From NCBI RefSeq assembly GCF_022539505.1, contig NC_061510.1:392690249-392754248 (forward strand): 64,000 bases of DNA. Reading direction: 5' to 3'. Made by a program: the position numbers and the translations under genes. Below the pieces are notes generated by a model that worked only from the letters and a program-made list of their open reading frames with translations, was not told the DNA's origin and did no database searches. Positions within the stretch are counted from its first letter, which is position 1. The number at the start of each line of letters is the position of its first letter. This DNA comes from Lolium rigidum. Lineage: Eukaryota > Streptophyta > Magnoliopsida > Poales > Poaceae. Positions 1 to 41,734 of this stretch are shown one piece after another.

Positions 1-2
1 AG

Positions 3-3207: not shown

Positions 3208-5421
3208 AGTTCACACAAGTGTTTGCTTCTTGAGGTGGAGAGAAATAGGTGAACTGACTCAACATTGAAAGTAAAAGAATGGTCCTCATAGAGGAAAAGC
3301 ATCGATTGCTATATTTGTGCTAGAGCTTTGATTTTGAAAACATGAAACAATTTTGTCAACGGTAGTAATAAAGCATATGCATCATGTAAATTATATCTTA
3401 TAAGTTGCAAGCCTCATGCATAGTGTACTAATAGTGCCCGCACCTTGTCCTAATTAGCTTGGACTACCTGGATTATCACCGCAATACATATGCTTTAACC
3501 AAGTATCACAAAGGGGTACCTCTATGCCGCCTGTACAAAGGTCTAAGGAGAAAGCTCGCATTTGGATTTCTCGCTTTTGATTATTCTCAACTTAGACATC
3601 CATACCGGGACAACATAGACAACGAGATAATGGACTCCTCTTTTAATGCTTTAAGCATTCAACAACAATTAATTCTTTTCTCATTAGAGATTTGAGGATG
3701 TTTGTCCAAAGCTGAAACTTCCACCATGGAACATGGCTTTAGTTAGCGGCCCAATGTTCTTCTCTCACAATATGCATGCTCAAACCATTCAACTCGGTGT
3801 AGATCGCCCTTACTTCGGACAAGACGAACATGCATAGCAACTCACATGAAATTCAACAATGAGTTGATGGCGTTCCCCGATAAACATGGTTATCGCACAA
3901 CAAGCAACTTAATAAGAGATAAAGTGCATAATTACATATTCAATACCACAATAGTTTTTAAGCTATTTGTCCCATGAGCTATATATTGCAAAGGTGAATG
4001 ATGGAATTTTAAAGGTAGCACTCAAGCAATTTACTTTGGAATGGCTGGAAAATACCATGTAGTAGGTAGGTATGGTGGACACAAATGGCATAGTGGTTGG
4101 CTCAAGTATTTTGGATGCATGAGAAGTATTCCCTCTCGATACAAGGTTTAGGCTAGCAAGGCTTGTTAGAAACAAACACAAGGATGAACCGGTGCAGCAA
4201 AACTCACATAAAAGACATATTGAAAACATTATAAAACTCTACACCGTCTTCCTTGTTGTTCAAACTCAATACTAGAAATTATCTAGACCTTAGAGAAACC
4301 AATTATGCAAACCAAATTTTAGCATGCTCTATGTATTTCTTCATTAATGGGTGCAAAGCATATGATGCAAGAGCTTAAACATGAGCACAACAATTGCCAA
4401 GTATCACATTACCCAAGACATTATAGCAATTACTACATGTATCATTTTCCAATTCCAACCATATAACAATTTAACGAAGGAGAAACTTCGCCATGAATAC
4501 TATGAGTAGAAACCAAGGACATACTTGTCCATATGCTACAGCGGAGCGTGTATCTCTCCCATAAAGTGAATGCTAGGATCCATTTTATTCAAACAAAACA
4601 AAAACAAAAACAAACCGACGCTCCAAGAAAAAGCACATAAGATGTGATGGAATAAAAATATAGTTTCGGGGAGGAACCTGATAATGTTGTCGATGAAGAA
4701 GGGGATGCCTTGGGCATCCCCAAGCTTAGACGCTTGAGTCTTCTTGATATATGCAGGGGTGAACCACCGGGTGCATCCCCAAGCTTAGAGCTTTCACTCT
4801 CCTTGATCATGTTGCATCATACTCCTCTCTTGATCCTTGAAAACTTCCTCCACACCAAACTCGAAACAACTCATTAGAGGGTTAGTGCACAATATAAATT
4901 GACATATTCAGAGGTGACACAATCATTCTTAACACTTCTGGACATTGCATAATGCTACTGGACATTAGTGGATCAAAGAAATTCATCCAACATAGCGAAA
5001 GAGGCAATGCGAAATAAAAGGCAGAATCTGTCAAAACAGAACAGTTCGTATTGACGAATTTTAAAATGGCACCAGACTTGCTCAAATGAAAATGCTCAAA
5101 TTGAATGAAAGTTGCGTACATATCTGAGGATCATGCACGTAAATTGGCATAATTTTCTGAGCTTCCTGCAGGGCAGTGGGCTCAGATTCGTGACAGCAAA
5201 GAAATCTGGAACTGCGCAGTAATCCAAATCTAGTACTTACTTTTCTATCAACGGCTTAACTTGGCACAACAAAACTCAAAACTAAGATAAGGAGAGGTTG
5301 CTACAGTAGTAAACAACTTCCAAGACACAAAATAAAAACAAAGTACTGTAGGTAAAAACATGGGTTGTCTCCCATAAGCGCTTTTCTTTAACGCCTTTCA
5401 GCTAGGCGCGGAAAGTGTGTA
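3208..5421 (-). repeat. Non-coding 3' internal region of the Sabrina-like element
   Basis: About 2.2 kb without a credible gene, lying 3' of the protease in element orientation. It is paralogous to 58050-60200 in the second element. It contains two copies of GCATCCCCAAGCTTAG (4714-4729 and 4773-4788), identical to the polypurine-tract region that abuts the LTR of the second element. The first 215 bases (3208-3422) are the reverse complement of 33252-33466. Confidence 0.8.
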
Positions 5422-6132
5422 TCAAGTAACATCGAGAGATGAAGCATCAACATCATAATTTGTTCTAATAATAGAATCATAAGGTACCTTCATTCTCTTT
5501 CTAGGGAAGTGTTCCATACCTTTCTTGAGAGGAAATTGATATTTTATATTTCCTTCCCTCATATCAATAATAGCACCAACGAGTTCGAAGAAAAGGTCTT
5601 CCCAATATAATTGGACAAGATGCATTGCATTCAATATCCAAGACAACAAAATCAACGGGAACAAGGTTATTGTTAACGGTAATGCGAACATTATCAACTT
5701 TACCCAAAGGTTTCTTTGTAGAATGATCGGCAAGATTAACATCCAAATAACAATTTTTCGGCGGTGGCAAGTCAAGCATATTATAAATTTTCTTCGGCAT
5801 AACGAAATACTTGCACCAAGATCACATAAAGCATTACAATCAAAATCTTTAACCTTCATCTTAATGATGGGCTCCCAACCATCTTCTAGCTTTTTAGGAA
5901 TAGAGGCTTCGCGCTCTAGTTTCTCTTCTCTAGCTTTTATGAGAGCATTTGTAATATGATGCGTGAAAGCCAAATTTATAGCACTAGCATTAGGACTTTT
6001 AGCAAGTTTTTGCAAGAACTTTATAACTTCAGAGATGTGGCAATCATCAAAATTCAAACCATTATAATCTAAAGCAATGGGATCATCATCCCCAATGTTG
6101 GAAAAAATTTCAGCGAGCTTTATCACGGGCAA
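5422..6132 (-). pseudogene. Retropepsin-like domain of the Sabrina-like element
   Basis: The minus-strand frame encodes a gag-protease linker and an aspartic-protease-like fold. The active-site region reads CDLGASIS rather than the canonical DTGAS, as in plant Gypsy relatives of this type. Further on, VPVDFVVLDIECN and PIILGRPFLRT mark the second half of the retropepsin domain. These two halves lie in different frames (the second is at 5564-5800), so there is a frameshift and the protein is broken. It ends with VDASSLDVT before a stop, and no RT follows. Confidence 0.75.
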
Positions 6133-6144
6133 TTTCAGCGGTTT

Positions 6145-7543
6145 TAGCGGTTTCGAGGCAGTTTTTCGCGCTTTGCATTAGAAGTGGAAACATTGCTAAC
6201 ACCAATTCTTTTATTAGTATGAGTAGGAGGTGCAGCAACATGTGTAGCATTAGCATTACTAGTGGTGGTAATAGTCCAAACTTTAGCTATATTCTTCTCT
6301 TTAGCTAGTTTTTCATTTTCTTCTCTATCCCACCTAGCACGCAGTTCAGCCATTAATCTTATATTCTCATTAATTCTAACTTGAATGGCATTTGCTGTAG
6401 TAGCAATCTTATTATGATGATTCTCATTAGGCAAAACTTTTGATTTCAAAAGATCAACATCGGCAGACAAGACTATCGACTTTAGAAGCAAGTATATCAA
6501 TTTTCCCAAGCTTTTCTTCAACGAGATTTGTTAAAAGCAGTTTGTGTACCAATAAATTCTTTAAGCATGGCTTCAAGTCCAGGGGGTGAGTTCCTATTAT
6601 TGTTGTAAGAATTTCCATAAGAATTACCATAGCCGTTGCCATTATTATAAGGATATGGCCTATAGTTGTTACTAGAATTGTTCGGTAAGCATTGTTGTTG
6701 AAATTATTATTTTTAATGAAGTTTACATCAACATGTTCTTCTTGTGCAACCAATGAAGCTAACGGAACATTATTAGGATCAATATTAGTCCTATCATTCA
6801 CAAGCATAGACATAATAACATCAATCTTATCACTCAAGGAAGAGGTTTCTTCGACGGAATTTACCTTCTTACCTTGTGGAGCTCTTTCCGTGTGCCATTC
6901 AGAGTAGTTGATCATCATATTATCAAGAAGCTTTGTTGCTTCACCAAGAGTGATGGACATAAAGGTACCTCCAGCAGCTGAATCCAATAAATTCCGTGAA
7001 GAAAAATTTAGTCCTGCATAGAAGGTTTGGATGATCATCCAAGTAGTCGAGTCCATGGGTTGGGCAATTTTTAACCGAGAGATTTCATTCTTTCCCAAGC
7101 TTGAGCAACATGTTCAGTATCTAATTGTTTAAAATTCATTATGCTACTCCTCAAAGATATAATTTTAGCAGGGGGATAATATCTACCAATAAAAGCATCC
7201 TTGCATTTAGTCCATGAATCAATACTATTCTTAGGCGAGAGATAGCAACCAATCTTTAGCTCTTCCTCTTAATGAGAAAGGGAACAATTTTAGTTTAATA
7301 ATATCACCATCTACATCTTTATATTTTTGCATTTCGCATAGTTCAACAAAATTATTAAGATGGGCAGCAGCATCATCAGAACTAATTCCGAGAAAATTGA
7401 TCTTTCATGACAAGATTCGGTAAAGCAGGTTTAATTTCAAAGAATTCTGCTGTAGTAGCAGGTGGAGCAATAGGTGTGCATAAGAAATCATTATTATTTG
7501 TGGTTGTGAAGTCACACAACTTAGTATTTTCAGCGTTGGCCAT
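6145..7543 (-). pseudogene. Degraded gag of the Sabrina-like element
   Basis: The likely start is the ATG complementary to 7541-7543 (MANAENTKLCDF...), about 230 bp from the primer site. The frame breaks after roughly 50 codons. Gag resumes around 7098-6454 with TTWMIIQTFYAGLNFSSRNL and GEATKLLDNMM, typical of the capsid region of plant Gypsy elements. A C-terminal part follows at 6521-6144 in another frame. The 7100-7400 part shows gag coding in scattered frames. Multiple frameshifts and stops make this a dead copy. Confidence 0.75.
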
Positions 7544-7771
7544 TTTAGCAACAGTAAATAAAGCAAACTAGATAAAGTAAATGCAAGTAAACTAATTTTT
7601 TTGTGTTTTCGATATAGCAAACAAGATAGCAAATAAAGTAAAACTAGCAACTAATTTTTTTGTATTATTTTGATTTAGTGCAGCAAACAAAGTAGTAAAT
7701 AAAATAAAGCAAGACAAAAACAAAGTAAAGAGATTGAGAAGTGGAGACTCCCCTTGCGGCGTGTCTTGATC

Positions 7772-7789
7772 TCCCCGGCAACGGCGCCA
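7772..7789 (-). other. Primer binding site, tRNA-Asp type
   Basis: On the minus strand this reads TGGCGCCGTTGCCGGGGA, complementary to the 3' end of plant tRNA-Asp (ending CCCCGGCAACGGCGCCA). It lies 11 bases from the LTR edge at 7801 and identifies this LTR as the 5' one, so the internal region runs toward lower coordinates. Confidence 0.93.
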
Positions 7790-7800
7790 GAAAAAGAGCT

Positions 7801-9394
7801 TGATGGCGTGTATTTCACACGTTCGTTGGGCAACCCCAAGAGGAAGGTATGATGCGCACAGCAGCAAGTTTTCCCTCGAGAAAGAAACCAAGGTTTATCG
7901 AACCGAGGAGGAGCCAAGAAGCACGTTGAAGGTTGATGGCGGCGGGATGTAGTGCGGCGCAACACCGGGGATTCGGCGCCAACGTGGAACCTGCACAACA
8001 CAACCAAACTACTTTGCCCCAACGAAACGGTGAGGTTGTCAATCTCACCGGCTTGCTTGTAACAAAGGATTAACCGTATTGTGTGGAAGATGATTGTTTG
8101 CGAGAAAACGGTAGAACAAGTATTGCGGTAGATTGTATTTCGGTAAAGAGAATTGGACCGGGGTCCACGGTTCACTAGAGGTGTCTCTCCCATAAGACGA
8201 ACGGCATGTTGGGTGAACAAATTACGGTTGGGCAATTGACAAATAAAGAGAGCATGACAATGCACATACATATCATGATGAGTATAGTGAGATTTAATTG
8301 GGCATTACGACAAAGTACATAGACCGCCATCCAAGCTGCATCTATGCCTAAAAAGTCCACCTTCGGGTTATCATCCGAACCCCCTCCGGTATTAAGTTGC
8401 AAGCAACGAGACAATTGCATTAAGTATGGTGCGTAATGTAATCAACAACTACATCCTTAGACATAGCATCAATGTTTTATCCCTAGTGGCAACGACACAA
8501 CACAACCTTAGAACTTTACGTCACTTGTCCCGGGTGTCAATGCGGGCATGAACCCACTATCGAGCATAAGTACTCCCTCTTGGAGTTAAAAGTAAAAACT
8601 TGGCCAGAGCCTCTACTAGAAACGGAGAGCATGCAAGATCATAAACAACACATGTATAACTTTGATAATCAACATAACAAGTATTCTCTATTCATCGGAT
8701 CCCAACAAACGCAACATATAGAATTACATATAGATGATCTTGATCATGATAGGCAGCTCACAAGATCCGACAATGATAGCACAATGGGGAGAAGACAACC
8801 ATCTAGCTACTGCTATGGACCCATAGTCCGGGGGTAGACTACTCACACATCACACCGGAGGCGACCATGGCGGCGTAGAGTCCTCCGGGAGATGAATCCC
8901 CTCTCCGGCGGGGTGCCGGAGGCGATCTCTGGATCCCCGAGATGGGATCGGCGGCGACGGCGTCTCAGTAATGTTTTCGGTATCGTGGCTCTCGGTACGG
9001 GGGGTTTCGTCACGGAGGCTATTTGTAGGCGGAAGGGCAGGTCGAGAGGCGGCACGGGGGGCCCACACCACAGGGCCGCGCGGCCAAGGGGGGGCCACGC
9101 CGCCCTAGGGTTTGGCTCCCCCGTGGCCCCTCTTCGTCTCGTCTTCGGTCTTCTGGAAGCTTCGTGAGAAAATAGGCCTCTGGGCTTTTATTTCGTCCAA
9201 TTCCGAGAATATTTCTTTACTAGGATTTCTGAAACCAAAAACAGCGAAAACGACAAGCGGCACTTCGGCATCTTGTTAATAGGTTAGTTCCAGAAAATGC
9301 ACGAATATGATATAAAGTGTGCATAAAACATGTAGATAACATCAATAATGTGGCATGGAACACAAGAAATTATCGATACGTTGGAGACGTATCA
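7801..9394 (-). repeat. 5' LTR of the Sabrina-like element
   Basis: A 1594-bp LTR on the minus strand, beginning TGATACGTCTCCAACGTATC and ending CACGCCATCA. It is exactly as long as the plus-strand LTR at 33855-35448 and clearly homologous throughout. The CTACAAATAGCC-type stretch near 9020-9035 is a plausible core-promoter region. No coding function; open frames inside it are incidental. Confidence 0.93.
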
Positions 9395-11217
9395 GTCAGC
9401 CATGACATTAGCTTTGCCTGGAGTGTAGCTGATAGACAGATCAAAGTCCTTGATGGTTTCCATCCATCTCGTTTGACGGAGGTTCAAGTTGGGTTGGGTG
9501 AAGATGTATTTGAGACTCTTGTGGTCGGTGAAGATCTCACATTTGTTGCCCAACAAGTATTGGCGCCATGTTATTAAAGCATGTAACACGGCTGCAAGCT
9601 CGAGATCATGTGTGGGATAGTTGAGTTCATGCTTTTTCAACTGACGAGAAGCATACGCCACAACTTGACGTTCTTGCATGAGGACAGCACCTAGTCCATG
9701 AAGAGAGGCATCACAGAATATCTGGAAAGGTTTAGAAGTATCTGGAAGAACCAGGACAGGTGTGGAAGTGAGCTTCTGCTTGAGGAGATCAAAGCTTTCT
9801 TGGCATTGAGGAGACCAAAGGAACTTCTTGTCTTTCTTCAGGAGATCGGTAAGAGGCTTGGCGATCTTGGAGAAATTCTCAACAAAGCGGCGGCGATAAC
9901 TTGCCAAACCGAGGAAACTTCTCACTTGCTTGACATTCTTCGGAGGAAGCCATTCAACGATCGCCTTGACGGTTTCAGGATTGACAGCAATGCCTTTTCC
10001 CGAAATGACATGGCCAAGATAGACGACTTGAGGAAACCAAAATTCACACTTGGAGAACTTGGCATAGAGACGGTGTTCACGAAGCTTCATGAGGATGAGG
10101 CGAAGATGCTCTTCATGCTCCTCATTGGACTTGGAGTAGACAAGGATATCATCAAGATAGACTACCACAAACTTGTCGATGTACTCCATGAAAATGTAGT
10201 TCATCAACCGAGAGAAAATGGCAGGAGCATTAATGAGGCCAAAGGACATGACGGTGTATTCGTAGAGACCATAACGAGTTTTGAAGGCTGTCTTGGGTAC
10301 ATCCTCCTTACGGATTTTAATTTGGTGATAACCACTTCTCAAATCCATCTTAGAGAACACAGTTGCACCCGCAAGCTGATCAAAGAGCTCATTGATGCGA
10401 GGAAGAGGATATGTATTCTTGACCGTTTTCTCATTGAGAGGGCGGTAATCAACCACCAATCGATCAGTTTTATCCTTTTTCTTCACGAAGATGGTAGGAC
10501 ATCCCCATGGAGAAGTGCTTGGCTGAATGAAACCAAGTTTTTGCAACTCATCAAGCTGCTTCTTGAGTTCAGCCAACTCATTTGGACCCATTTTGTATGG
10601 CCGCTTTGAGATAGGAGCTGTTCCAGGCTCTAGTTCAATGACGAACTCAACAGCCCTGTCAGGTGGCATACCTGGAAGTTCTTCAGGAAAGACATCAGGA
10701 AAGTCGCAAACCACCGGTATAGAATCAAGCTCCGGAAGAGAACTAGGATTCAAAGCAAAGAGCTGAACGGAAGGTGTTTGAGAAGGTGTATAGATCAAGG
10801 TTCCTGACGAAGTAGGAAGAGAAACTGAATGCTCAGCGCAATCAATGACAACTTTGTTGGCCTTCAATCCATGCCAAGGATGACATTAAAGCCGGAACTA
10901 AGAAGAAGAAAGAGGAAAACCTCAAACAACAAGTTAAAACTTTGATAGATGAAAGAATGTGACGCTCCGGTATCAAATAGAACTATAGCTGAAAAACGGT
11001 TGATAGGAAGGACGAGGAACCATTTGTCTTGTAAACCTGAAACATAACTTTTGTTGAACTTGAGATCTGCGTGGAACAGAAAGAGGGGTGGGAGGGCGGG
11101 AAACAAAACCTTCGGACGAGGCACGTAGGTGGGTTGCGCCGGAACAAAAAGATCAACACATTTATCGAATTTAACAAAACCCAATATTAGTGCTAGCGAG
11201 AACTTCAAAGGAAACAT
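9395..11217 (-). pseudogene. Gypsy polyprotein: protease, reverse transcriptase, RNase H
   Basis: The minus-strand reading starts with a retropepsin (FDTGASHSFI near 10985-10955, then NVILGMD at about 10870) and continues after a frame change near 10865 into a 491-codon open frame. The RT core is clear: [35 protein letters not shown] and the catalytic YLDDILVYS. RNase H follows with [13 protein letters not shown] and [11 protein letters not shown], ending at GKANVMAD. At that point the Sabrina-like LTR begins. The next residues of this polyprotein (ALSRKS...) occur at 35454 on the plus strand, so the gene is split by that insertion. Gag was not recognised upstream. It belongs to the Gypsy element nested in the CACTA transposon. 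Confidence 0.9.
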
Positions 11218-12259
11218 GAATATGACAAGATATCTTCAAGGTACAAGAATTCAAGTACACGAGAGGTAGCCATAACATGTCAAAGATTAGAATGATAGCA
11301 GCAACAGTACTTCACAAAGATACCTTGCGAGGTTTATGAAGTGCAGCTATACAGAAGTTTTTGCAATAGCAAGTGTCAATAACATGGGTCGTGTTGACAC
11401 TAGTTATGCATATTGGAAGGGAAACAACAAGGTATGATCTTGGCGAAAACAACTCCGGGGAAGGAAAGTTGATATATGCACCGGAACAAAAAGTGGTCAA
11501 GATAGCATCGGATCAAAGGAGAACAACATGTTCGTATGAAAATACCAACATGTCAAAGGAACAGATTATATGTGGAGATTGACAAAGGATGATAATGAAG
11601 CAACCATAGTACAGAATATTTTCAAAACACTTTTCCCTATGTCACTATGGTTTCCCACAAACACGTCCAAGCCTAGATGAAACAAGATAAGAATAGAGTA
11701 AAACCGTTGCTCTTCCTTACCAGAGGGTGGGTGGGTGGGGTAAGAAATAAAAGCAGAATTCCTACTCTCGCGCACAATTTTCCTATGTAGCTACTAAAAT
11801 ATGAGTTTCTAGACACAACTTCGTCCGCTGCAAGGGGCTCCTAAAGGCGATCCTGCTCGATACCAAGTCCGTAAGCCCCAGGAGTAGGAAAACCCAGAGC
11901 GCGCAGGTAAGAGGGGTTTATGTGCATGAGGTCACTACAAAGGATCGTGAGGTCGCCTCGCATTCCCAAGAATATGGGTAGGCCAAGCAACAGCTCGACA
12001 CGCCCATGCACACAACACCCACCTCAAAGGCTCACGATAGGCTTTCCAAGCCTGAGTGCTTCACCTTCCTGTGCACTTCACACATACACACACTGTGCAC
12101 AGGTTACGAGGGTAGAATACAGCTTGAATATCACAACATGACTATGTATGACACAAAAGATGGAAATAAGGTTCATATATATAGCAACGCTCTAATGAGC
12201 AAGGTCCAAATGACACTCAGAGGACACCTGTTCCAACATTACATCATACATAAGATAGC
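11218..12259 (-). other. Internal or LTR-type DNA of the Gypsy element, no gene seen
   Basis: About 1 kb upstream of the protease reading frame. No gag domain, zinc knuckle or long open frame is visible on the minus strand. The stretch between 11820 and 12100 (ggctcctaaaggcgatcctg and following) looks like LTR sequence of Triticeae Gypsy families, but I cannot place an LTR border. Confidence 0.45.
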
Positions 12260-13070
12260 CAAATAGTCTGGGTACAGACAAGAACCAAATGGGACTAAGA
12301 GTCCTGAAGATAATCAAGCGGTGTTCCCATAACCAACATGCCACGAGCTGCTGCCTTAGGAACGATCCTGCTACGCAACGAAGTCGTCGTCCGTGAACTC
12401 GACAAAGTAGCCACCTGCGTACTGCTCATCATCTGTCGTACATGTTTGTCGAAAAGCGGGTTCCGGAAAAAGAGGAAGAAAAACGAGGGTAAGTACCGTT
12501 GGCACGTACTTGCGAGACAAGACCAGCTATGCTCGCTGGTGGGCGGTGTAAACTTCGCCCGGCTTTATGTGGAGTTTAGCGGCAGCAAAGCACTATCCAA
12601 TAGAGACACGCTACAACTTCCGTCTAATAGAGAAGGTGAGAGAGCGCATAATCTAGCAGTTCTATACTCTGCAAACAACAACCCAGCCAAATGCGATCCC
12701 CCTTAGCCAAGAGGTACTAACAAGGCACTCACACAGTTGACAATTTTATATCCATTCCATTATAATAGGGCTAACTTACTACGCAAGTAATTAGCAAGTT
12801 ATTAGCGACAACTTTAGGTGTAAGTTGTTCTATGATCGAGTTAAACAGCTCCAAGTCGTCCATAACCGCGGACACGGCTTATCGATAAGATTTACCCTGC
12901 GAGGGTGCACCAATGTTACCATACACGCATGCTCGAACCCGCGTAGACAAGCGCGGAGTCTCACAACAAGACCGTTCCCAAATCAACAAGAATGCCTAGG
13001 GGGGCCACCCGACTAAGCTACCCGAAACGAAGTTCGGCCGTACTCCGATGCGGACTCAGGGTTTGCGTCG
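12260..13070 (+). repeat. LTR-like arm, inverted relative to 18160-18860
   Basis: Read on the plus strand this shares an ordered series of blocks with the minus strand of 18860-18160. Examples are 'ggactaagagtcctgaagat', 'agagaaggtgagagagcgca', 'gttctatactctgcaaac', 'ccaagtcgtccataaccgcg' and 'cttatcgataagatt'. The copies differ by many substitutions and indels, so they are related LTR subfamilies rather than a recent duplication. Confidence 0.8.
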
Positions 13071-18159: not shown

Positions 18160-19095
18160 GAGTGCGTGTCGTGATATCCACCGTCGTAAGTGGGTTGATC
18201 GTGCGTGTGGGCACATTTGGGCACCCTGCGAGGGTTACAATCTTATCGATAAGCCGCGTCCGCGGTTATGGACGACTTGGAGCTGTATGACTCGACCATA
18301 GACAACTTACACCTGTTGTTTATTAATAATAACTTGCTTAGTAAGTTAGCACAACTTCACTAATAAATGGTTAAAACTTGACAACCGTGTGAGTGCCTTT
18401 GTAAGTACTTCCTTGCGAGGGGGGAAAGCGTCGGCTGTGTTATGTTTGCAGAGTATAGAACTGTTAGTTGTGCGCTCTCTCACCTTCTCTGATTAGACGA
18501 AAGTTGTAGAGTGTCTCTATAGGTTTTTAGTGCTTGCGCGTTGCCTCTTAACCCCACCATATTGCCTATGACGTTCCTCTTGCGTCCTCTAAGTCCCCTG
18601 CGTGCCTCAAGTACAAAGGACGGCGGTTGACGAATGCTTATACGTCTTGAAGTCTTGTTAAGTACGGACCCGTACTTATTGCTGCTTCTACGGGATATAA
18701 CCGGGCAGGTATGAAGATATGTTCGATGAAGACGACGTTAGCAAGGTTACCCTTCCGGCTTGGCCTGGGCAGGGTTATGGACGCCACTTGATTATCTTCA
18801 GGACTCTTAGTCCAATTGTATCTTGTCCGTACTCGGACGTATTCGATCTTCTGTATGATTTGGATCTTTGTATTGTATATTTGTATCTTGACTCGTGGAG
18901 TCGTTGTTGTAATATATATGTTTCTTGTGGGCTCTATTGTAACCCTGTTGTAATGTTACTACTCGTGGTAATTCCTCTGGCATCACGTGTGTGATTCGTC
19001 GCGCACATCGTGTCGGAGGGCGTCTCAGAATCGATATCGTGCGGATTTCGGCGGGATCGCTGGAATCCTCATGGTACCGGTTCCGGGGCGTCACA
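18160..19095 (-). repeat. LTR start of the Gypsy element nested in CACTA
   Basis: The minus strand begins TGTGACGCCCCGGAACCGG at 19095, a standard LTR start of Triticeae Gypsy elements. The five bases outside it (19096-19100) read GTACT on the minus strand and pair with GTACG at 36958-36962 as a target-site duplication with one change. The adjoining sequence is CACTA transposase, interrupted after the residues LGFLGVY. Confidence 0.85.
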
Positions 19096-20867
19096 AGTAC
19101 ACACCCAGAAAGCCTAGCAGGTTCACGCAAAGATTCTTCGTCACGTGCATCACATCGATTGAAGAGCGGACTTCTAAGACTTTCCAATATTCTAGCTCCC
19201 AAAAAATAGATTTCTTCTTCCACATGGGCGCGTGTCCGGCGGCGTCATTCGGAACGGACCGTCCGCCGGGACCCTTTCCAAATATTACATCTAGATCCTT
19301 GACCATACCAAATATATCAACACCATCACGATGGGGAGGCTTCCTCCGGTGATCAGCCTCACCGTCGTAATGCTTGCCTTTCTTTCTTACGGGATGGGTA
19401 ATCCTAAGAAATCGACGATGCCCCGGGTACACGACCTTCGACCTTTTTCCAAATAATCACCTTCGAGCTCATGTAAACGAGTGTGTGCATGCATTGTATC
19501 CCTTGTTTGATTGTCCCGAAATGTTACCAAGAGCAGGCCGGTCATTGATGGTTACGAAAAGCATCGCTCTTAGGTCAAATTCCTCCTCGCTTGTGCTCGT
19601 CCCACACACGTACACCTGCTAGGGACCACAGCCGTAGAAGTTCTTCGACTAATGGCTTCGGTACACATCAATGTCGTTCCCGGGTTGCTTCGGGCCTTGT
19701 ATGAGCAACGGCATCATAATAAACTTCCGCTTCATGCACAACCAAGGAGGAAGGTTATATATACAAAGAGTCACGGAGCCGGGTGCTATGGCTGCGGCTA
19801 CTGCTCTCCAAAAGGATTCATGCCATCCGTACTTAGACCAAACCTTAAGTTCCTTTGCATCTGTGCAAAGTTTGGGAACTCTCTATCGATTTTTCTCCAT
19901 TGGGATCCATCGGCGAGGTGCCTCAACATCACGTCTTTCTTACGGTCTTCTTTGTGCCATCGCAACAACCTAGCGTGCTCTTTATTCCTGAACAAGCGTT
20001 TCAGCCAGTGGTATTATAGGAGCATACCACATAACCTTGGCGGGAACCCTCTTCTTGGGGCACTCGCCCTCAACATCACCGAGGGTCATCTCGTCCGATC
20101 TTATACCGCAATGCGAGTGCACACCGGACATGCATCCAAATTCTCGTACTCACCGCGGTAGAGGATGCGGTCATTAATGCATGCATGTATCTTATGCACA
20201 TCTAATCCTAGAGGGCGAGACAATCTTCTTCGCTTCGTACGTACTGGCGGGCAATTCGTTACCCCTTGGAAGCTTCCTCTTAATTATTGTCGGCAACTTT
20301 CCAAATCCTGAGTCGGTGACACCGTTCTCTCGCCTTCCATTGCAACAATTCCGGCGTGTCGCCTAGCTTTTTATGGCCATCTTCGCAAGTTGGGTATAAA
20401 AATTTGTTGTGATCTTCTATCATCTTGTCGAAGGCCAACCTTTCCTTTTCGGTTTCACATTCTCTCCTTGCATCGGCAATGGCCCGACCAAGATCATCAT
20501 CGGCGAGGCTCATCCGGTGCCTCTTGATCTTCTACTTCATTGTCTTCATTGCCTTCTGCGGTATCATCGTATTCGGGGAAATTGGGATAACCGTCATCAT
20601 CCTCTTCCTCTTCTTCATTGTCTTCCATCATAACCCCTCTTTCTCCGTGATTGGTCCAACAATAGTAGCCGGGCATGAAACCGGATCGCGAGAAGGTGGT
20701 CGTGAATGAGACTCGAGTGAGCGTAATTTACGGTATTCTTGCGGTTCGAGACATGGACAATACATGAAGCCACCATGTTTGTTTGCCTCCGCCACGGCCA
20801 TAAAATTATCCAGGCCCGAAGTGAACTCGTCAAACCGTCGGTCAATGTATATCCATTGCCGATTCAT
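19096..20867 (-). pseudogene. CACTA transposase TNP2, N-terminal half
   Basis: The minus-strand reading starts at MNRQWIYIDRR (20867), the transposase-associated domain, with AVAEANKHGGFMYCPC. Further blocks lie in several frames: a DUF-like stretch with RRECETEKERLAFDKM (about 20470-20430), RLLRWHKEDRK and the TNP2 signature FGLSTDGMNPFG (about 19980-19800). The last is FWELEYWKVLEV and DVMHVTKNLCVNLLGFLGVY (19230-19100). The frame shifts between blocks, so this copy is dead. TNP2 is the DDE-type transposase that cuts CACTA ends. The C-terminal half resumes at 36958 on the plus strand with GKTKHTPEARE. Confidence 0.9.
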
Positions 20868-21129
20868 ACGCATGATATAATTTAGCCGATCAAAATCATT
20901 ACGGAACATCACGATGTATATATACACATGCATTTTATCAATTACGGATGAAAATGATAAAGTTGTTAACCTCGATGAAGAAGAAAAAATCAAGTGGCAA
21001 ATCCTCTTAAGCATTTCATCAAACACCTCTTGTGCATGTGAAGAAGAGAGGAGAGCAATACACCCTCTTGTGAAGAAAGTGAAAAAATGGCCAAGTGTGG
21101 CTCACACTTGGGCAGGGCAAGGTAATATA

Positions 21130-21432
21130 GCCAGATTGGGGACCTTGTCCCGGTTTGTAACACAAACCGGGTCCATAGGGGGGGCCTTTGGACCCGGTTT
21201 GTATTACAAACCGGGACTAAAGGTTTCCCACGCCTGACACCGCCTGCCGCGCCTGCCGTGGACCCTTTAGTCCGGTTTGTATTACAAACCGGGTCCAAAG
21301 CCACTACCGGATAAGCTCCGGCGTGTGGGGTCGTCCCAGGCGAAACGAACCGGGACCAATGCCACCATTGGACCCGGTTTGGTTCAGCACTGGGACATTT
21401 GCTTGGGACCAAAGGCCTCTTCTCCACTAGTG
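21130..21432 (-). repeat. CACTA terminal and subterminal repeats (transposase side)
   Basis: On the minus strand the element begins CACTAGTGGAGAAGAGGCC at 21432. Inside it are several palindromic subterminal blocks of the type CCCGGTTTGT ... ACAAACCGGG (around 21150-21175, 21199-21225 and 21269-21295). Such blocks bind the element-encoded TNPA-type protein in En/Spm. The three bases outside (21433-21435) read CTG on the minus strand, matching CTG at 47773-47775 beside the other terminus. Confidence 0.9.
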
Positions 21433-22779
21433 CAGAGAGTCTGAGTTGCTTTCGTGTGGGTAGCTAAATTATCTTATTTCAGCACTTAGCTTAATCTTTG
21501 CGACAACCCGTGACTTTTGTGCCCTGTGCATCACTGCATCTTGTGTCTACTACAGCAAACAAAATGAACCAAGGCACCCAAATCCATGAGAAAAAAAAAG
21601 GATCAGTTTTCAGGTTCAGACTTAGTGGAGTCCTCGTGCGAGGCGAGAACGGCGCTGCTCCATCACCTGCCCACCGGCCGAGCCGTTGTACGCCGGATCC
21701 AGCAACCCCGTCCTCTCCCCCCCGCCCCTAACGTCCGCCCTTGTTTCTCTGCTGGAGCCCCACGAGAGAGCGGCAGCGGCAGCCTCCATGGCCAAGGCCG
21801 CCTCCACGCTCGCCGCAGACGATGAACAGCCTGCACAGCTACGCGTCCATGTCCATGTTCTCAGCGCCTGCGCACTCCGGGGCAAGTCGCGCCTCCCTCC
21901 GACAACCGCCGCCCTCTCCTGAGCAAATATCTTCTCAGGTCGGGAAAGGAGGCCCTCGAAGGGTCGCTGCCAGAGGTGATTGTCGACGTTGACCAACACC
22001 AGTAGTCCCTCCAGGTTCCCGCCTCCATCCTCTTGACCTGCCGGCGCTCCAACCGCCCATCACTGGACCGACGGCGCCCCGCAGGTTTGTGCGGATCGCA
22101 TGGACCCGGCATCTATCCGCCCCTCTGCAGCGACCCAGCAGTGATCTGCCTCACGCCGATCAAGCGACGCCTAACCTTTCCCGTAGTCACACGAATCATG
22201 CGAGCAGGGGATTTTGGTGGAGATCTACAGGGCTGGAGCTCGGGGCTTGGAACGGCTTGTGTTCTGCTCTGGAGGAAGGAATAGCTCGGGGATACACCGA
22301 ACCGGTATTAGGGGCAATAAAAAGGAACAATAATTCAAATGTTTTTCACTTATAGGTGGCATTGGTGGGTAATTTTGTCCCAACTTTGAGGGCAGTTTTA
22401 AGTTGAGCGAACGACCGAGGGAGAAACCAAATATCATTAACCAGTTGTACTACTCAATGAGACTAAGCAAAAAATGAATTTAATTACATGCAATTGCTAA
22501 AGTCCAAGAGGAAATCGTGGCCACAGCTAGGAACAGTAGACGTAAAAAAAAATCAGAAATAAGTAGTACTATGTATACTGGTTATTTTCTAGTACACAAG
22601 CAATTTCAAGATCCGGTAGCACATTAGCTGGTGTAAGCAACATGAAATACCTACCTCCGGCCGAGTTGTGGCGACAATAATAAGATATTTCGTGGCTAGC
22701 TATTGCTTCATGACGGCCGGTGGATTATATTGTACATTTGTACCTCTCTTGCGAGCACCTTACACGCATAGATATCAAA
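21433..22779. other. CACTA flank: intron-like and GC-rich sequence, no known gene
   Basis: The bases next to the CACTA end look like ordinary low-copy AT-rich DNA. 21600-22300 is GC-rich with several overlapping open frames on both strands (for example minus 21999-21622 and plus 21586-21825), none with a domain I recognise. A segment ending 'gaccgagggagaaacc' near 22425 recurs near 24510 and may mark the ends of a small unidentified element. Confidence 0.35.
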
Positions 22780-24088: not shown

Positions 24089-25089
24089 GGAACCGTATAA
24101 GTTAGACGGGGGTGGCTTGGCTTATATCTACCCTATTGTATCGATCAGAGTCCGTGAGGATGTCCTGTTCGTGCTCGAGTCGATCTGTTTTGCTGTGGAC
24201 GTACTTGTTATGGGCTCATGGATCCATTCCACTGAGAGGCTTAGTTCGTATAGGTTGATGGTCCGGCAGGAACGGGCGGCAGAAATCCAGGCCAAGGCCC
24301 ATCATGGCGACAGAAGAACCAAACCACGCACCACCAATCGACGGGGATACAGACATACGAATCAGGCACCACCAATCGGCGGGGAGACAGACATACAAAG
24401 CGTGTTTTCATTGAAACGTTTTTTAACTTATTGGTGTCAGCAGTGGTAATACTATTTTGGTGGGAGGGCAAATCGGTCTAAAGAAAAGGTGGCTGACGAC
24501 TGAGGGAGAAACCCTTTTACTTTTATTATTAGGTATAGATATAGATATAGATTATATATATTATATATATTATATATATATATATATAGTGGAGATGGAG
24601 ATGGAGATAAATTAGTAGCAACACACAGGTACGTGTGACAACTTTTGGTGTGAGAAATTCTTTTTACGTCTTTGTAAAATACTCTTTTCGCTGCAACGAC
24701 ACGAACATGTTTTCTAGTCTTTTGCTAAATCCTTAAAAGCGTAGTTGCGCTCGTTAGACAAGACAAGCACATGGCACTTCACATGCCACAACGGCACACC
24801 ATATTTTTCTTGAGCATTCCCACCAAAAAAGAAATCCTCGATCCACTATGGACCCTTCAGGGTGGTTACCGAATCCGTACAAGTTTTGGTGAAGCTCTAC
24901 AAATTAATTGGAGGCTCTCAAGTAAACTCCACGAAGGTCACAAGTTTAAGAAAAAACTCCGCTATTATTTGAGGCTCCAAAGTAATTTCCACCAAGGCCA
25001 CAAACCTATAAAAGGCCACACATCCACAAAGCCCCCGATGCCACAAAGTCCAACAAGCTGTCTAGGGTTCCAAGATCCAAAGAGGGACA
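24089..25089. repeat. Repetitive DNA with TA and GA microsatellite
   Basis: This interval holds a roughly 38-bp motif in two tandem copies (accaccaatcg[ac/gc]gggga, about 24328-24400). The block 'ttattattaggtatagatatagat' runs into a TATA microsatellite (24533-24590) and a GGAGAT repeat. The remainder to 25089 is AT-rich with one weak plus-strand frame of 162 codons (24771-25259) that lacks any known domain. Confidence 0.45.
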
Positions 25090-27848
25090 CGCTTCGTTTA
25101 CAAGCACCCAAGAGCAATCACCCAAAAACTCTCACTTCATCGAATATCCCTAGAGAACTCAAACCGACGCACCTTATGCCATGGCAAGAACACAAGTGTT
25201 CAAATCCTTCGCTCCCAAATGTTAACAAAGTTACAAAAACTTACAGAGGGCGTCACTAAGAGAATGTTTTGATTGGTGGAGTAGTAGACCTAGATATCCT
25301 CTCTTTTTTCTCTCAAAATGATTATAAAATTATGGGAGGAATTAGGAGATAGGAAAAGATCTTCAAGGTCAATAATGAAGGAGGGAAACTGAGATGAACT
25401 ATAGCCCATGAGGAAGACATAAGGGGCTTAAATAGGTCCTCACGAAATCTTGTTGTTATGTGCAGATTCGTGCACGAATGATACTACCGCTAGGGAAAGC
25501 GGTAGTACGGATCCGGGTGTTAGTCCTTGTCAACGCGTGCGGCTACCGGTACAAGTACTGGTCGAGATACCACGACGTTTTATGCGAGTTTCGTGTCCCC
25601 GACAGTACATGAGCGGTACCAAGCTCGGTACTTCCGCGATCTTGTGAGACCACTAAGTGGAACAATGGCTGGTACTACCACGAGCCATGTAGAACATGTC
25701 CCAGTGGTACTTACGGACCAGGTACCGCCCAGGGTACAAAACCAACTTGACCATCGGGACAGAACCGGAGTTGTATCGTGGACGGTACTATTGCTCCTAG
25801 AGGAGCAGTGATAGTACCACAGTAGCGGTTCCAATATCTGGGTACGAGATGGATGGGTAGAGGTAGTACCTCCTCCGTGGAGACAATGGTACTACTGGTG
25901 ACCGAACCGGTACTACCATCCATAGCAAAACTGCAGAAACATAAATGTAATGTCTTGATATAGGAAATCAAATTTAGGTGAAACCAATTTTGTTGGAAAG
26001 AGGACGAGAAACCTGAAAGTGCATGGAGCCCCCATGTGTAGTTTTGGTAATTAATGACAATTCCTGTGGAGTAATGTTTGAAGTGAGTTATATACATGTG
26101 TAGGAGTTGTCCATAGGAAATTCTTGAACCATATGGTGGCTTCAAGGTTGCAATAAGAAGAAATTGATGAAGAATATCAAGTGACAAGTATGTATTAAGA
26201 ATAAGTTTGAGTGAGCTCTCATGTGTATGTTCAAGACATCAACAAGATAAAGAAAGAAGAAATGGTGTGCAAGTTCAAGATGAGCCCTCTCGAAGAGATA
26301 ATAAGCTTGAAGCTTTTCATCCATATGGTGATCATGGATATGTGAAGATGCGCCGAAGAAGCTTCCCCATAGAGGAGTATTGTGGGAGCAATCTGCAAGA
26401 CTTCATCAAGCAAGTACAATCAATAAAAGGTGTTCTATCTGGTTGCAGTCAAAATCTTCATCATCAAACTCAAGTGGAATGCACAAGGTTAAGGTTTTTC
26501 TTGATAGGGTTTCTTTCTTACCGGTCTCGTGGTTTAGTTGGAGAACGATTGACAGGATAGTTGCCGTACTATCAAGAGGGCTCCCGAGTGAGTAACTCGA
26601 TCGTATCGTTCGGAAAGAGCTCAAAACTTTGCATCCTTGCATCATCTTTCTTGGTTGTTATTTGGATCTTATCCATGTGGTGTTTTAGAGCTTGTGGTTA
26701 TTTTCATGACAAGCTCTAGTTCATCGAGAACGGATTTCCCATGTTTTACTAGTTGCATTTTCGATATTGGATTTTTTTCTCGGTTTCTCGTTTTGAGAGG
26801 TTTCACTCTAAAATTCATATAAAATAGTCCCCTACTTGTTTTCATATATTCAACAAAATTGGTGAGGGTAGCTCTTGTCGCCCTCTTTCCAATAAAATTG
26901 GTTTTGTCTCGATTGGAGTTCCCAAACTCTAGAGATTGAGGTTCTAAGTTTGCATTCTATTTGGTTTAAAAGAAAATTAAAACATGTTGGCTGCCTATGA
27001 GCTGGCCGACATTACCGCCCTTGTCGGGCCGGCTCTACCACCCAACCCATGCCGGCACTTCCAGCTCCCGCGCACGGTACTGCCGGGCATCTTAGGCCAG
27101 CGATACCGGGCCACCCAACCCGGAACTACTGGGCCGCCCAGCTCCTTGTGCTCCCCCCCCGCTCCAGGCCGCCTCCCACTCCCGCCCGCTCGTCACTCTC
27201 CCGCCTAGCCCCAATCCCCTGCGCGTTCGGTGCTCTCTCGCGCGCCTGCCTTGCTGTTGTTGTTGTTTGTCATGCAGGGGGTAGTACCGCCTTAGATCGC
27301 TGGTACTATGGGCCCATGCTGGATATGGCTAGTCCAACAGGCAGAAAAACTGTGTGCATATTTAACGCCTCTCTTCTCTCTCTAATGCATTAATTCTTCT
27401 TTCTCCCCAAGCTCTCGTCCACTATTGACATTTGAGAACTTCCTCTCCCTCAAATCTCTCCATGATTCTTGCTCATATTTGAGGAAAAGATAGAGGAGAT
27501 CTAGATCTCTGTTTCCACCAATCAAATTCCCCTCTTTATGAGGGAATCCCTAGATCTAGTTCTTGGAGAGAAATTTGGTTCCTCTTCCTAATTTGTTCTT
27601 CCTCTCTTATTCCCCCAATATCCTTTGTAGCTTTGTTGGAATTTGAGCGAGAAGGATTTGAGCACCTTTGTGGTGTTATAGACATGGCATTTGGTGCATT
27701 GATTTGAGTTCTCCGCGGTGATACGTGGATGTGATAGTTTGTGAGATTTTCCTTCGGCATATGATGAAAGGCATGCAAGGATTTGAGCTCTCTCTGAAGG
27801 ATACGATCAATTTTATCATTCGAGAGCCTTCTTGATAGTACGGCCAAC
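25090..27848. mobile_element. Unclassified repeat with inverted arms
   Basis: Two inverted pairs are visible. About 25110-25330 (plus) matches 27740-27510 (minus) around 'gagaactcaaa', 'tgccatg' and 'ctcaaatcctt'. 26560-26646 (plus) matches 27847-27759 (minus) around 'ccgtactatcaaga' and 'gatcgtatc'. Between them are many GGTAGTACC/GGTACTACC-type motifs (25490-25920 and 27285-27310). A start TGAAAGTGCATGGAGCCCCC lies at 26014, a sequence that recurs in Triticeae genomes. There is no transposase or reverse transcriptase, so the class is left open. Confidence 0.5.
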
Positions 27849-28062
27849 TATTCTAAAATCTGGTCTCCCAACAACAACAAGTGACCGGTAAAAGAGAAAG
27901 TCTATTCGTGTCCTCGGGTCCTTAGTTGTGCTCAGTTTTCCCCAACCGCTTAGTTCTTCCTCAGTTTTGCCAAAGCCCTTGTCTGAAACCCTCACAAGTG
28001 CTGGAACGGCCAGTTGCTCGACGGGTCAACAACTTTGACCGTTATCTGCTGACTAGTGGGGC

Positions 28063-29254
28063 CACGTAGAGCCCGCCAAAGACACGTCAGACCATCCATC
28101 TTTTTTTGACCGTAAGCATCGCCGTATCCCTGACCAAAACGCGGACGAGTGGGGATTTGGCATATCGAATGATAAGTGGGGCCATGATGTTGATACAAGG
28201 GGCAATACACGTGTAGGATTAGATTTTTTAAACAGAGCTCTACAGTGATGGCACGGAGGAGGTGGCCTGCGGGGTGCCGAGATGAGATCGACGTCCACGA
28301 AGAACTGCATGAGGCGAGACCAGACATATTAGATAGATATGAACTAGATGCGTTTAACCATGCAAAGAAGAGAAGAAATGGTCAAGGAAATCGACGACTA
28401 CCTCAACACTTTGACTAACGGTGTCGGACACGAACGCGAGCAATGTAGAGAAAACTACTGTCTCTCCTTTCTGGCGTGTATAGATGGGTGCTAGGGAAGT
28501 GTGGTGGCGAAGGGAAAGATCTCGCGGTGGTCTGTGGCGTCCAGCATAGCGGGGCGGCGTGGCCGTGCCCACAGCGGCATGCATGTTCGGCATTGGCATC
28601 AGCATGTACGTTCGGCATTGGCCTCGGCGGTATCTCTGGTGTGTCAGTGATCGAATGAGGGGACGGGATTGAGGGTGCATCCCGATGGTGACCTAGCAGT
28701 GACGGCAAACATAGCCGTTCTGACCATGCCGATATCGGCATCGACATCGTTCGGAGGCTGTGGTGCTCGAATCAAGGTGGGATTTGTTTCTTGTACGCCA
28801 AAATGAATTTGAAATAAGTTTCCTGTTGAAGGTTAGGTAAAATACGAAAGTTTGTAACTAAAAATTTTACTGGCACTATCGTGAGGTTCTTTTTGATAGA
28901 GATATACGGTTCAACAATTTTTTTGACACTTTTTAGATATTCCTTGTTGTTACAGGTATGGCATCATGTATGCCAAACTTGGGGTCATTTGGAGATGTTC
29001 GAAAAATCACTTTGCTTAAGCGCATGTCGTGTGGTCTCACTGAAACCAGCTTTTGTAACAGGTTAGGTTTTTTCGACCTTCTCTAAATGACCTCAAAAAT
29101 CATACAGATGATCTTCTATACAGATGGAAATCCCACAAATATGTATATCTCATGTTTATAGCAAAATTATACCACTTTAGGGACGTTCAAATAACCAAAA
29201 ATATATCCCAAACTATATTCCCTAAAATAAAACAGAAAACCAAAACTGATCATG
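28063..29254. other. Interior of the Mutator-like element, no gene seen
   Basis: 28063-28800 is moderately GC-rich with small overlapping frames on the minus strand and no domain. 28800-29250 is AT-rich. A partial copy of the tandem unit described at 29628 lies at about 29135-29240. Confidence 0.4.
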
Positions 29255-29616
29255 GGTGCATATGCACCTGGTATGTATAAAACATATTTCAAAAAGTAAA
29301 AAAAATTAGGAAAAAAATTTAGCATGTAGAGGGACATGTTCTATGTGTACACATAAAGTTTCATGTAAAACCAACAATTTTTGTACCATGTGTAAAAAAG
29401 ACAAATAATGCCTCGAGAAATAGACTATTTTAACACCAAAAATTTGTCTTTTTAGTACAGGGCACAAAACATATCGGTTTTTGCTGAAACAACTTTGTGA
29501 ACATGTAACATGTCAAGGTATACACGAGGCATTTTTGTTTTTTTTTTAACATTTGGAAATATGTTTAATATGCATTTCAAATAAAGGGTGCATATGCACC
29601 CGGGTGCAGAAACACC
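29255..29616. mobile_element. MITE-like insertion with GGTGCATATGCACC ends
   Basis: About 360 bp bounded by 'gggtgcatatgcacctgg' (29265) and 'gggtgcatatgcacccggg' (29586). Beside them, on the inner sides, are 'aaaacatatttcaaa' and 'ggaaatatgtttaat'. Each end is itself a palindrome. It interrupts the sequence homologous to the tandem repeat on either side. The superfamily is unknown. Confidence 0.45.
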
Positions 29617-29627
29617 ATGTCCAAAAT

Positions 29628-30245
29628 AAAAAGGAATGCTAAAGAAAGTTCATAATTGGTAGCGGGGTGATAAATAATCCATTCACCGAAATCCCCCAAA
29701 TATGCCAAATATGTATGTCTCATGTTTCTACCAAAATTATACCACTTTTGGGCCATTTCAAATTACCAAAACTATATTCCCTAAAAGAAAAGGAATGCTA
29801 AAGATAGTTGATAATTGTTAGAGGGGTGATAAATAATCCATTCACCGAAATCCCTCAAATATGTATGCATCATGTTTATACCAAAATTATACCACTTTTG
29901 GGCCGTTTCAAATTACCAAAACTATATCCCAAACTATATTCCCTAAAAGAAAAGGAATGTTAAAGAGAGGGTTGATAATTGTTAGAGGGGTGATAAATAC
30001 TCCATTCACCGAAATCTCTCAAATATGTATGGCTCATGTTTATACCAAAATAATACCACTTTCGGCCCGTTCAAATTACCAAACTTATATCCCAAACAAT
30101 ATTTCCTAAAAGAAAAGAAATGCTAAAGAGAGTTGATAATTGTTAGAGTGGTGACAAATAATGCATTCACGGAAATCCGCAAATATGTATGTCTCTTTTT
30201 TACACCAAAATTATACCACTTTTTAGTTTAACATTTTTAGATCGT
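29628..30245 (+). repeat. Tandem array, about 163-bp unit, four copies
   Basis: Units start near 29628, 29791, 29951 and 30115. Each contains 'aggaatgctaaag', 'ttgataattgttagaggggt', 'ataaataatccattcaccga', 'accaaaattataccactttt' and 'caaattaccaaa'. The last unit is truncated. Copies differ by a few substitutions and a 12-bp 'atcccaaactat' insertion. Confidence 0.9.
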
Positions 30246-30327
30246 GGAAAATAATGCATAAATAGAGGGAATATAGTTACATGGCAAACTCGTTATTGCA
30301 CATAAATAGAGGGGTGGCATTATCCAC

Positions 30328-30415
30328 CAACAGAGAGAGAGAGAGAGGTGGCCACGAAGAGAGAGAGAGAGAGAGGGAGAGAGAGAGAGAGAGGTGGCCA
30401 CGAAGAGACGGAGAG
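30328..30415 (+). repeat. GA microsatellite with embedded duplicate
   Basis: Runs of GAGAGA are interrupted by two copies of 'gaggtggccacgaagaga' (about 30345-30362 and 30391-30408). This suggests slippage or a short tandem duplication. Confidence 0.85.
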
Positions 30416-31293
30416 GGGTATACTGCCCGCTAGATCAGTGGATCAACGGTTGGTGGAGTCGATCCGTGTAACAACGGCTCAACCAATCATGATAAGTTTG
30501 GGCTTCTGTGAGTATTTGTGACAGTACTTGAGAGCAAAACTGAGTAGTACTAAGAAATCAAGGGCACGTAAATAGTAAATAGACTAAGTGATTCAAACAA
30601 AAGAATTACAAAATGAAAAATGCGGGTTTTGTACAATATAATTCATATTGGGCTACATCAAATTATTTGCAATTCAAATATGCATGAGTGTGACAATTAT
30701 GGCCTCATTTAGACAAACTATGTTTTGGGGAAGATGTTTTGCAAAGGGGTTTGAGTGGAAAACCATGCATCTTCATAGCTACTAGTGATTCTGAGAAGTG
30801 GTAATTTGTGGTAAAACTTGATTTATCTATGTTTGTTAAGGTTTGCTAGGTGGCAGGTTGTGTAGGAAGACTCCATGAGTAGGTGCCACTATGTTTTTTT
30901 TTTTGGATTTTTTGCGCATGAAATGACTCAATTAGCTATGTTAATCTTATTTGTTGACTCTCTGTTTACCAGCTACTTGAGGGTAAAACTGAGTATATTG
31001 CACTTGCCAGTCTAAGTACTCGAGGGGAAAACTGAGTACAAATAAAATTTCCGTATAAGGCCCGAGGTTATAACTGAGTACACCAAACGTCCTAGGGTTA
31101 GCCTCGTGTCGCGGTGCACGCTGCAGCCGTGCATAACGGACGCGTGTTGCGGTACACGCCACCTTCGTCTTTATAGAGCCCCTCTTTCTCTCCCCCGACA
31201 CTCGCCCACTCTCTCATTCTCACTGCAACCGCCTCTTCTATCCCATCATCTTCTCCACAACCGAAGAAAAAACCCCGAGGAAAACCGCCGGCG
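30416..31293 (+). promoter_or_regulatory. Upstream region of the captured zf-XS gene
   Basis: About 880 bp without a gene. It holds direct echoes of the right inverted arm ('gagcaaaactgagtagtactaag' type at 30525-30590, 'aggggaaaactgagtac' at about 31022). Just before the putative start codon are a CTTTATAGAGCC box (about 31169) and a CT-rich stretch at 31182-31250 that could act as a TATA region and leader. Confidence 0.4.
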
Positions 31294-31321
31294 ATGGAGA
31301 AGAATGAGATGCCCATTGTCG

Positions 31322-31560
31322 ACGCTTCCGACGTAGCCGTCGCCGCATCAACCACCGGCGCATCGGCCGCAGCACCCATCCAGGCCCCGTAGCTGCTTCC
31401 AACGTAGCCGCCAGCGCATCGGCCGCCGCCCCCGTCCAGGCCCCGTCGCTGCTTCCAACGTAGCCGCTGGCGCATCGACCGCCGCCCCCGTCCAGGCCCC
31501 CGTCGCTGCTTCCAACGTAGCCGCCGGTGCATCGGCCGCTGCCCCCGTCCAGGCCCCCTT
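31322..31560 (+). repeat. 57-bp coding minisatellite, four copies
   Basis: Successive units encode approximately VAASNVAAGASAAAPVQAP. Units are near 31322, 31388, 31445 and 31503, with one-base losses at the junctions 'ggccccgtag' and 'ggccccgtcg' that break the frame. Confidence 0.85.
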
Positions 31561-31669
31561 CGCTTGGGAACCGCACGAACCAGTGCCGTAAGTTGCGCTG
31601 GAGAACCCCTACGACACCAGCATCGTCGACGACGAGCCGGAGGTAACCCTTTGTTCCCTTGTTCTTATC

Positions 31670-31850
31670 TCATTTCAATCCTTTTGTGTTAGATCTAGCG
31701 TTATTAGGGTTCGTATGTTCCTAGTTCAATCCTTTTGTGTTAGATCTTGCGTTATTAGGGTTCGTCTATTCCTAGTTTAATCCTTTTGTGTTAGATCTTG
31801 CATTATTAGGGTTCGTCTGTTCCTAATTCTAGATCTTGCATTATTAGTGT
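31670..31850 (+). repeat. 52-bp tandem repeat in the intron
   Basis: Three full copies and one partial copy of 'tcctttttgtgttagatct', 'gcgttattagggttcgt', 'tgttcctagtt' follow directly after the GTAACC donor. Confidence 0.85.
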
Positions 31851-32532
31851 TTGTGATTTGCTTCTGTTTAAGATTCGGTTAACTTATCTGAGTAATCAAT
31901 CCCATCCGGTTAATTTGTGCCGATGATGATGAATATTTGGGCACAAATTGAATCAGGGTTTGGTCAGTGAACAATTGGTGTGTACAAATTTGTTGTGCAT
32001 GATCTTTGGTCCACTGACTTAAATCCTAGATATAAGTGTGTCCAATGTAACTGATGCTACCTGTTTTTTTCGTGCCCATATTATCATGCATGATCTTTTG
32101 TTCACTCTCTGTTCCATCATCGTTCAATTGACTCCGTGTTTTTTGCACGATCTTTGGTGCTACGTGGCAGGTGCAGAGCAGCGACATCGACAGCAACGAC
32201 GAGTCCTTCCACACCAAGACTCGTCACGTACTCAGGAGGCTGCAGTCCGGGCATTACGATGGCCACTTTGCTCGAGGCGTTTACAGGTGCCCCTTCTGCA
32301 ACAGGAAACTCCGCGCCACCAACTTCAACTGCCTGGTGAACCATGCTGAATCCATTGGCAGATGCGGCCTAGAGTTGGAATGACCATGAACGTGCATGCG
32401 TTCATGGCCCAACACAAAGCACTTGGGATTCACCTGCGCAGCCTCCAAGCGAGTCACATGCGCTACCTGGAGGCGTTGAACGTGCCTACTGCACTCTCTG
32501 TATGTGACTGCTCTTTCTGTAGAGCAGCTTAA

Positions 32533-33009
32533 ATTCATGTAAAATGTAGCTTATGTTGGATCTATCGGTAGTACTATTGGATCTATCGTGAATATATCTA
32601 TGCTATGTTGGCTGTTGTATGCAGCTTATCCTATATTTTCTCTGGATTTGTGCCGTAGATTTCCTACCAGATTGGGTAAAAACGAAGGCATAAAGAAATG
32701 AATGTCATTGAAAAACAGAAGAGAAGCTGCTTTAGATTTGTTACCAATTTGGCAATCAAGAATGAATGAGATGAGTGAGAGAGAGGAAAAATGTGCATTG
32801 AAAACTGCTAATCTGGGCGAAAGAGACAGAAACCACTCGTGCCCATGTCCCGGACCCACACGGCTCCACACGCTACGGCCCCACACGCTACGGCCCCCGC
32901 TCCGCTCGTATGACCAAACACGATTTTGTCTTGTTCCACGCGGTCCCTTTCTACCAGCCCCACACGACGCGGCCCCACTCATCAGCACGGAACGGTCAAC
33001 TGAACGGGA
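32533..33009 (-). other. 3' flank inside the Mutator-like element
   Basis: No gene recognised. It includes a small direct repeat ('ggatctatcg' at about 32560 and 32580) and a duplicated 'ccacacgctacggcccc' (about 32875-32898). It then merges into the right inverted arm. Confidence 0.4.
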
Positions 33010-33151
33010 TTCCTCCCGTCCGAGCTCTTTCCGAGGGTTTCAGACAAGGTCTTGGGGAAAACTGAGGAAAAACTAAGGAGCTGGGGAAAACTGAGTACAA
33101 CTAAGGACCCGAGGGCACGAAAATAGAAATCCCAAAAAACAAACCTTGATC

Positions 33152-41690: not shown

Positions 41691-41734
41691 TTCATTTGAA
41701 ATAAGGCGGGAATGAAACTTTTTTAAAAAGTGGA

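Follow-up and report, generated by a model that had tools for sequence, protein, structure and literature searches.

The window analysed here, a 64,000-nucleotide (nt) stretch of the Lolium rigidum assembly (NC_061510.1, positions 392,690,249 to 392,754,248), holds a nest of three transposons, in which a long terminal repeat (LTR) retrotransposon lies within a Gypsy retrotransposon that in turn lies within a CACTA transposon. Each of the three is present in two pieces, one on the minus strand of one contig and the other on the plus strand of the next. The window consists of three contigs, here called A, B and C, parted by two gaps of 100 N, and the subject of this report is the orientation of contig B, which an earlier note on this DNA had claimed to be inverted in the scaffold. 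The layout is as follows.

1-3107: contig A
3108-3207: gap 1, 100 N, at the A/B boundary
3208-33151, minus strand: contig B, very probably misoriented with respect to contig C
33152-33251: gap 2, 100 N, at the B/C boundary
33252-64000: contig C, of which 30.7 kb lie inside the window and which extends past the window end

A strand-blind comparison of the contigs revealed that B and C open with the same segment in opposite orientations: the reverse complement of one copy agrees with the other at 214 of 215 bases, without gaps.

3208-3422, minus strand: terminal overlap, copy in B, starting at base 1 of the contig
33252-33466, plus strand: terminal overlap, copy in C, starting at base 1 of the contig

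The two assembly gaps are the break points of the turned stretch, and each is followed directly by a copy of the overlap. When the end of A, the start and end of B and the start of C (1500 nt each, word size 7) were compared with one another, the match between the two contig starts was the only one better than an expect value (E) of 0.09; within these 1500-nt ends the 215-nt segment was not found at the end of A or at the far end of B, and the end of A gave only short, chance-level matches (E 0.09 or worse) to the ends of B and the start of C. Overlapping contig ends are reported to serve as physical evidence for joins (PMC8519820), and the inverted pair would fit the pattern of a terminal overlap left unmerged, with B turned and placed before C.

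An inverted duplicate of this kind, each copy of which abuts an assembly gap, also has a possible biological counterpart. Staggered breaks are described as leaving inverted duplications at the breakpoints of an inversion, such that a short segment recurs in inverted form at both ends of the turned stretch (PMC5080602), and thus the 215-nt pair alone is no proof of an artefact. A real, recent inversion of about 30 kb, with one of its staggered breaks in a young LTR element, could account both for the pair and for the splitting of three nested transposons; the repeat could, in addition, itself have broken the contigs, so that gaps and breakpoints would not have to be independent events. Unlike the staggered-break inversions of that report, however, both copies here begin at contig base 1, beside assembly gaps. 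Such a history would further require that the inversion postdate three insertions and that gaps lie exactly at both of its ends, and the overlap itself is ordinary internal sequence of the element, colinear with the related copy considered below. We regard a real inversion as very improbable, and the earlier judgement that a scaffolding error is likelier than an inversion whose breaks coincide with gaps holds up, since the copies start at contig base 1 and the contig ends that face them lack the segment.

The overlap falls inside the innermost element, the split LTR retrotransposon, whose parts are these.

3208-7800, minus strand: internal region, the half in B
7801-9394, minus strand: 5' LTR, 1594 nt, flanked by CTGAC at 9395-9399 (minus strand)
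33467-33854, plus strand: internal region, the remainder in C
33855-35448, plus strand: 3' LTR, 1594 nt, flanked by CCGAC at 35449-35453

Aligned by MAFFT, the two LTRs share 97.1% identity across 1584 columns without gaps (96.6% by BLASTN), with 29 transitions and 17 transversions in those columns; both run from TGATAC to CCATCA at their ends, and only when B is turned do they take up the relative orientation expected of paired LTRs. Their target flanks, CTGAC and CCGAC, match at 4/5, a level that 1.6% of random 5-mer pairs reach. The element therefore has what defines an LTR retrotransposon: near-identical LTRs, TG...CA ends and a target duplication, here at 4/5. It may be Sabrina-like, as the earlier note calls it.

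A related and uninterrupted element further along contig C served as a yardstick.

55948-62867, minus strand: related LTR element, uninterrupted, with LTRs at 55948-57674 and 61147-62867 and the duplication GTGAG/GTGAG

The two LTRs of this element are 97.6% identical and its 5-bp target duplication, GTGAG, is perfect. Its internal part, at about 3.5 kb, is shorter than the split element's, at about 5 kb. A more distant LTR fragment of the same group lies nearby at 63172-63881, oriented as the LTR at 33855-35448 and about 70-73% alike by BLASTN.

Positions 33252-34248 of C align to 58277-57282 of the yardstick at 84.7% identity and positions 3208-5407 of B align to 58065-60249 at 87.7%, so that the yardstick runs continuously over the junction formed when B is turned. 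The overlap that these alignments imply, 213 nt, is in line with the 215 nt observed, and therefore nothing appears to be missing between the two halves, which join midway in the ordinary internal region of the element family, colinear with the yardstick. In the order given by the assembly, contig A lies opposite the half element that opens B, and the far end of B lies opposite the half that opens C. At E 1e-3 the split element's family is matched neither in contig A nor in 9401-33151, and both halves thus end blindly at gaps in that order.

The split LTR element sits in the polyprotein gene (pol) of the middle element, the Gypsy retrotransposon, which is likewise divided between the two contigs.

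9395-11235, minus strand: Gypsy pol, first part, with RVP_2, RVT_1 and RNase H, ending NVMAD
35451-36706, plus strand: Gypsy pol, second part, beginning (D)ALSRKS, with Integrase_H2C2 and rve

In a Pfam search of 30 open frames hand-picked from 80, of which 23 had no Pfam family at E 0.01, the domain order protease, reverse transcriptase, RNase H and integrase was obtained only with B turned. Within the second part the reading frame changes, from the frame at 35451-35741 to that at 35690-36706. Among the best 120 of 7981 matches to this protein, all 120 match the piece in B and 81 also match the piece in C, the other 39 being uninformative; in 80 of the 81 the last residue of B and the first residue of C fall on the same target residue, and in the remaining one they are off by 20. 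Such sharing is predicted by the duplication of the target codon, which encodes this D. One homologue, P0013, matches the two pieces at 96% and 94%. The outer flanks of the element, GTACT and GTACG, match at 4/5, and its ends are TG...CA.

The outermost element, the CACTA transposon, is divided in the same manner.

19096-21432, minus strand: CACTA, first part, with terminus CACTAGTGGAGAA at 21432, Transpos_assoc and Transposase_21, ending LGFLGVY; CTG at 21433-21435 (minus strand)
36958-47772, plus strand: CACTA, second part, beginning YGKTK, with DUF4218 and DUF4216 and terminus (reverse complement) CACTAGTAGAAAA at 47772; CTG at 47773-47775

Transposase_21 on the minus strand of B, and DUF4218 and DUF4216 on the plus strand of C, score above the Pfam cut-off; Transpos_assoc, also on the minus strand of B, falls below it (23.9 against 27.7 bits). 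These domains mark the transposase as TNP2-type. Among the best 120 of 807 matches to the transposase, all 120 match the piece in B and 72 also match the piece in C (the 48 without a match to the C piece at E 0.01 are uninformative), and the tyrosine at which the pieces join is the same target residue in every one of the 72.

The ends of CACTA transposons are expected to be inverted relative to each other. In the window as given, the terminus pattern has exactly two sites, 21432 and 47772, each of them on the minus strand; it averaged 0.013 occurrences in 300 mononucleotide shuffles, the pattern having been written after both sites were seen; CACTAGTGGAGAA and CACTAGTAGAAAA are alike at 17 of their first 26 bases. 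Before the turn these termini are not inverted; once B is turned they become inverted, with CTG and CTG as their flanks, where random 3-mers agree in 1.7% of cases. The termini and the matching 3-bp duplication are evidence added beyond the earlier note, as are the flush 215-nt overlap and the uninterrupted yardstick element.

A different explanation of these pairings is that B and C are not neighbours but each end in a different copy of transposon families they have in common. Sabrina and a CACTA family (Jorge) are listed among the six most abundant transposable element families of wheat (PMC6097303), and a cereal host would be expected to yield contig ends that resemble one another. Separate copies would nevertheless need to share a flush overlap at 99.5% identity by chance, in a region where identity to the other copy in the window reaches only about 86-88%. 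The LTR pair, at 97%, would have to belong to two elements, whereas the best match between the split element's LTRs and those of the yardstick covers only part of their length, about 400-510 nt, with 74-77% identity. Join points would, moreover, have to match in two host elements, together with the CACTA duplication. Taken with these demands, this explanation has a very small chance of being right.

We conclude, from the sequence itself, that the start of B adjoins the start of C, which is close to certain, and that the joint between B and C very probably carries a scaffolding orientation error, most simply one in which B was set the wrong way round between A and C. Turning 3208-33151 restores LTR pairing, Gypsy continuity and CACTA continuity together, as had been claimed, and both the LTR coordinates and the two protein joins (NVMAD to ALSRKS and LGFLGVY to YGKTK) of the earlier note were borne out. 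Its description of three independent nested transposons, each cut in two, is right as to the cuts and too strong as to independence: since the elements are nested in one another, all of the evidence bears on one junction, not three. Its claim that B is inverted stands for the orientation relative to C, on the strength of the overlap, the yardstick, the LTRs, the proteins and the CACTA ends; that B is the piece to turn is unproven.

The same kind of error could have arisen in another way. The reversed piece might be contig C, or a block that begins with it, and belong to the left of B, the orientation of B to A being kept as given. A turned C placed before B fits the evidence at the B-C junction equally well, since that evidence fixes relative orientation only, and gap 1 carries no sequence evidence. 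Moving C, however, takes two changes, a reordering and a turn, where turning B takes one, and C, which extends past the window, is likely the longer contig, whereas it is shorter contigs that are reported to be harder to orient from Hi-C contacts (PMC7672694). We consider a turned and moved C unlikely, as a minor variant of the orientation error and not as an addition to it; the simplest reading is an in-place turn of B.

Several observations weigh against an inverted B. Every line of evidence concerns the single junction between the start of B and the start of C, and gap 1 has neither an overlap nor a split element linking 3107 to 33151. The lone mismatch in the overlap, at 33419 in C with its partner at 3255 in B, has no explanation of its own, and may be a base error, an allele or divergence; at this position the related LTR element sides with B, against C. 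Two of the three target duplications, those of the split LTR element and the Gypsy element, match at 4/5 only. For the middle Gypsy element, finally, no LTR pair was found, nor any similarity between its two outer ends, so that its outer limits rest on the TG...CA ends and the 4/5 flank match; its LTRs are perhaps degenerate or truncated.

With contig B turned in place, the history of the locus might be as follows. A Gypsy retrotransposon would have inserted in the transposase gene of a CACTA transposon, and a Sabrina-like LTR element would then have inserted in the Gypsy element between the parts coding for RNase H and integrase. In the assembly, the contigs would have been broken inside this innermost element, leaving the 215-nt overlap unmerged, and the scaffolder would have found the right neighbourhood for the short contig B but reversed it, with gaps of 100 N on either side. 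The flip itself would probably be due to the weak long-range orientation signal of a 30-kb contig.

Contig B resembles the misoriented contigs of Hi-C scaffolding (PMC7672694) in being short, reversed, in the right neighbourhood and bounded by gaps; unlike them, it was found by transposon anatomy and an unmerged overlap, not by contact maps. Orientation differences between grass assemblies have been reported elsewhere. Between the assemblies of the wheat D genome and Aegilops tauschii, 223 structural differences are counted, 44 of them large ones of orientation, and for some an assembly error was considered likely (PMC12060248). In maize, about 2.2-2.3 Mb of a 22-Mb region is reported to have changed orientation between two versions, which suggests that such changes are not rare (PMC2773423). 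The nest itself, an LTR element in a Gypsy element in a CACTA transposon, is like the nested complexes of large grass genomes, and these superfamilies are described as dominating the transposable element fraction of wheat (PMC6097303). Set beside such complexes, the locus is ordinary once B is turned. The feature is very probably an assembly artefact, not biology.

Inversion calls, gene order and transposon counts at this locus would be wrong until the orientation of B and C to each other is corrected. More generally, contig-end overlaps and split nested transposons, tested jointly, can expose orientation errors without reads, and the test is applicable to every gap of such an assembly. Among the open-licence papers listed, judged by title and the opening of the abstract, none was plainly about split nested transposons or overlaps as a means of finding misoriented contigs, which does not prove that none exists; the nearest related work there appears to be the LTR Assembly Index, which scores assemblies by their intact LTR elements (PMC6265445).

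Contig B contains further elements. In the stretch that separates the Gypsy genes from the CACTA joint, two inverted arms at 12243-12940 and 18192-18859 are 79-82% alike in two blocks, and they perhaps mark another nested element. Near the end of the contig, at about 27900-33120, lies a Mutator-like element with inverted ends of 89 nt at 90% identity, whose target duplication is uncertain, the match of AAAAGAGAAA and AAAATAGAAA at 9/10 being the best of many offsets; it appears to lie wholly inside B and to be uninformative about contig A. A 164-nt unit is repeated there in 2.8 tandem copies, at 29769-30223.

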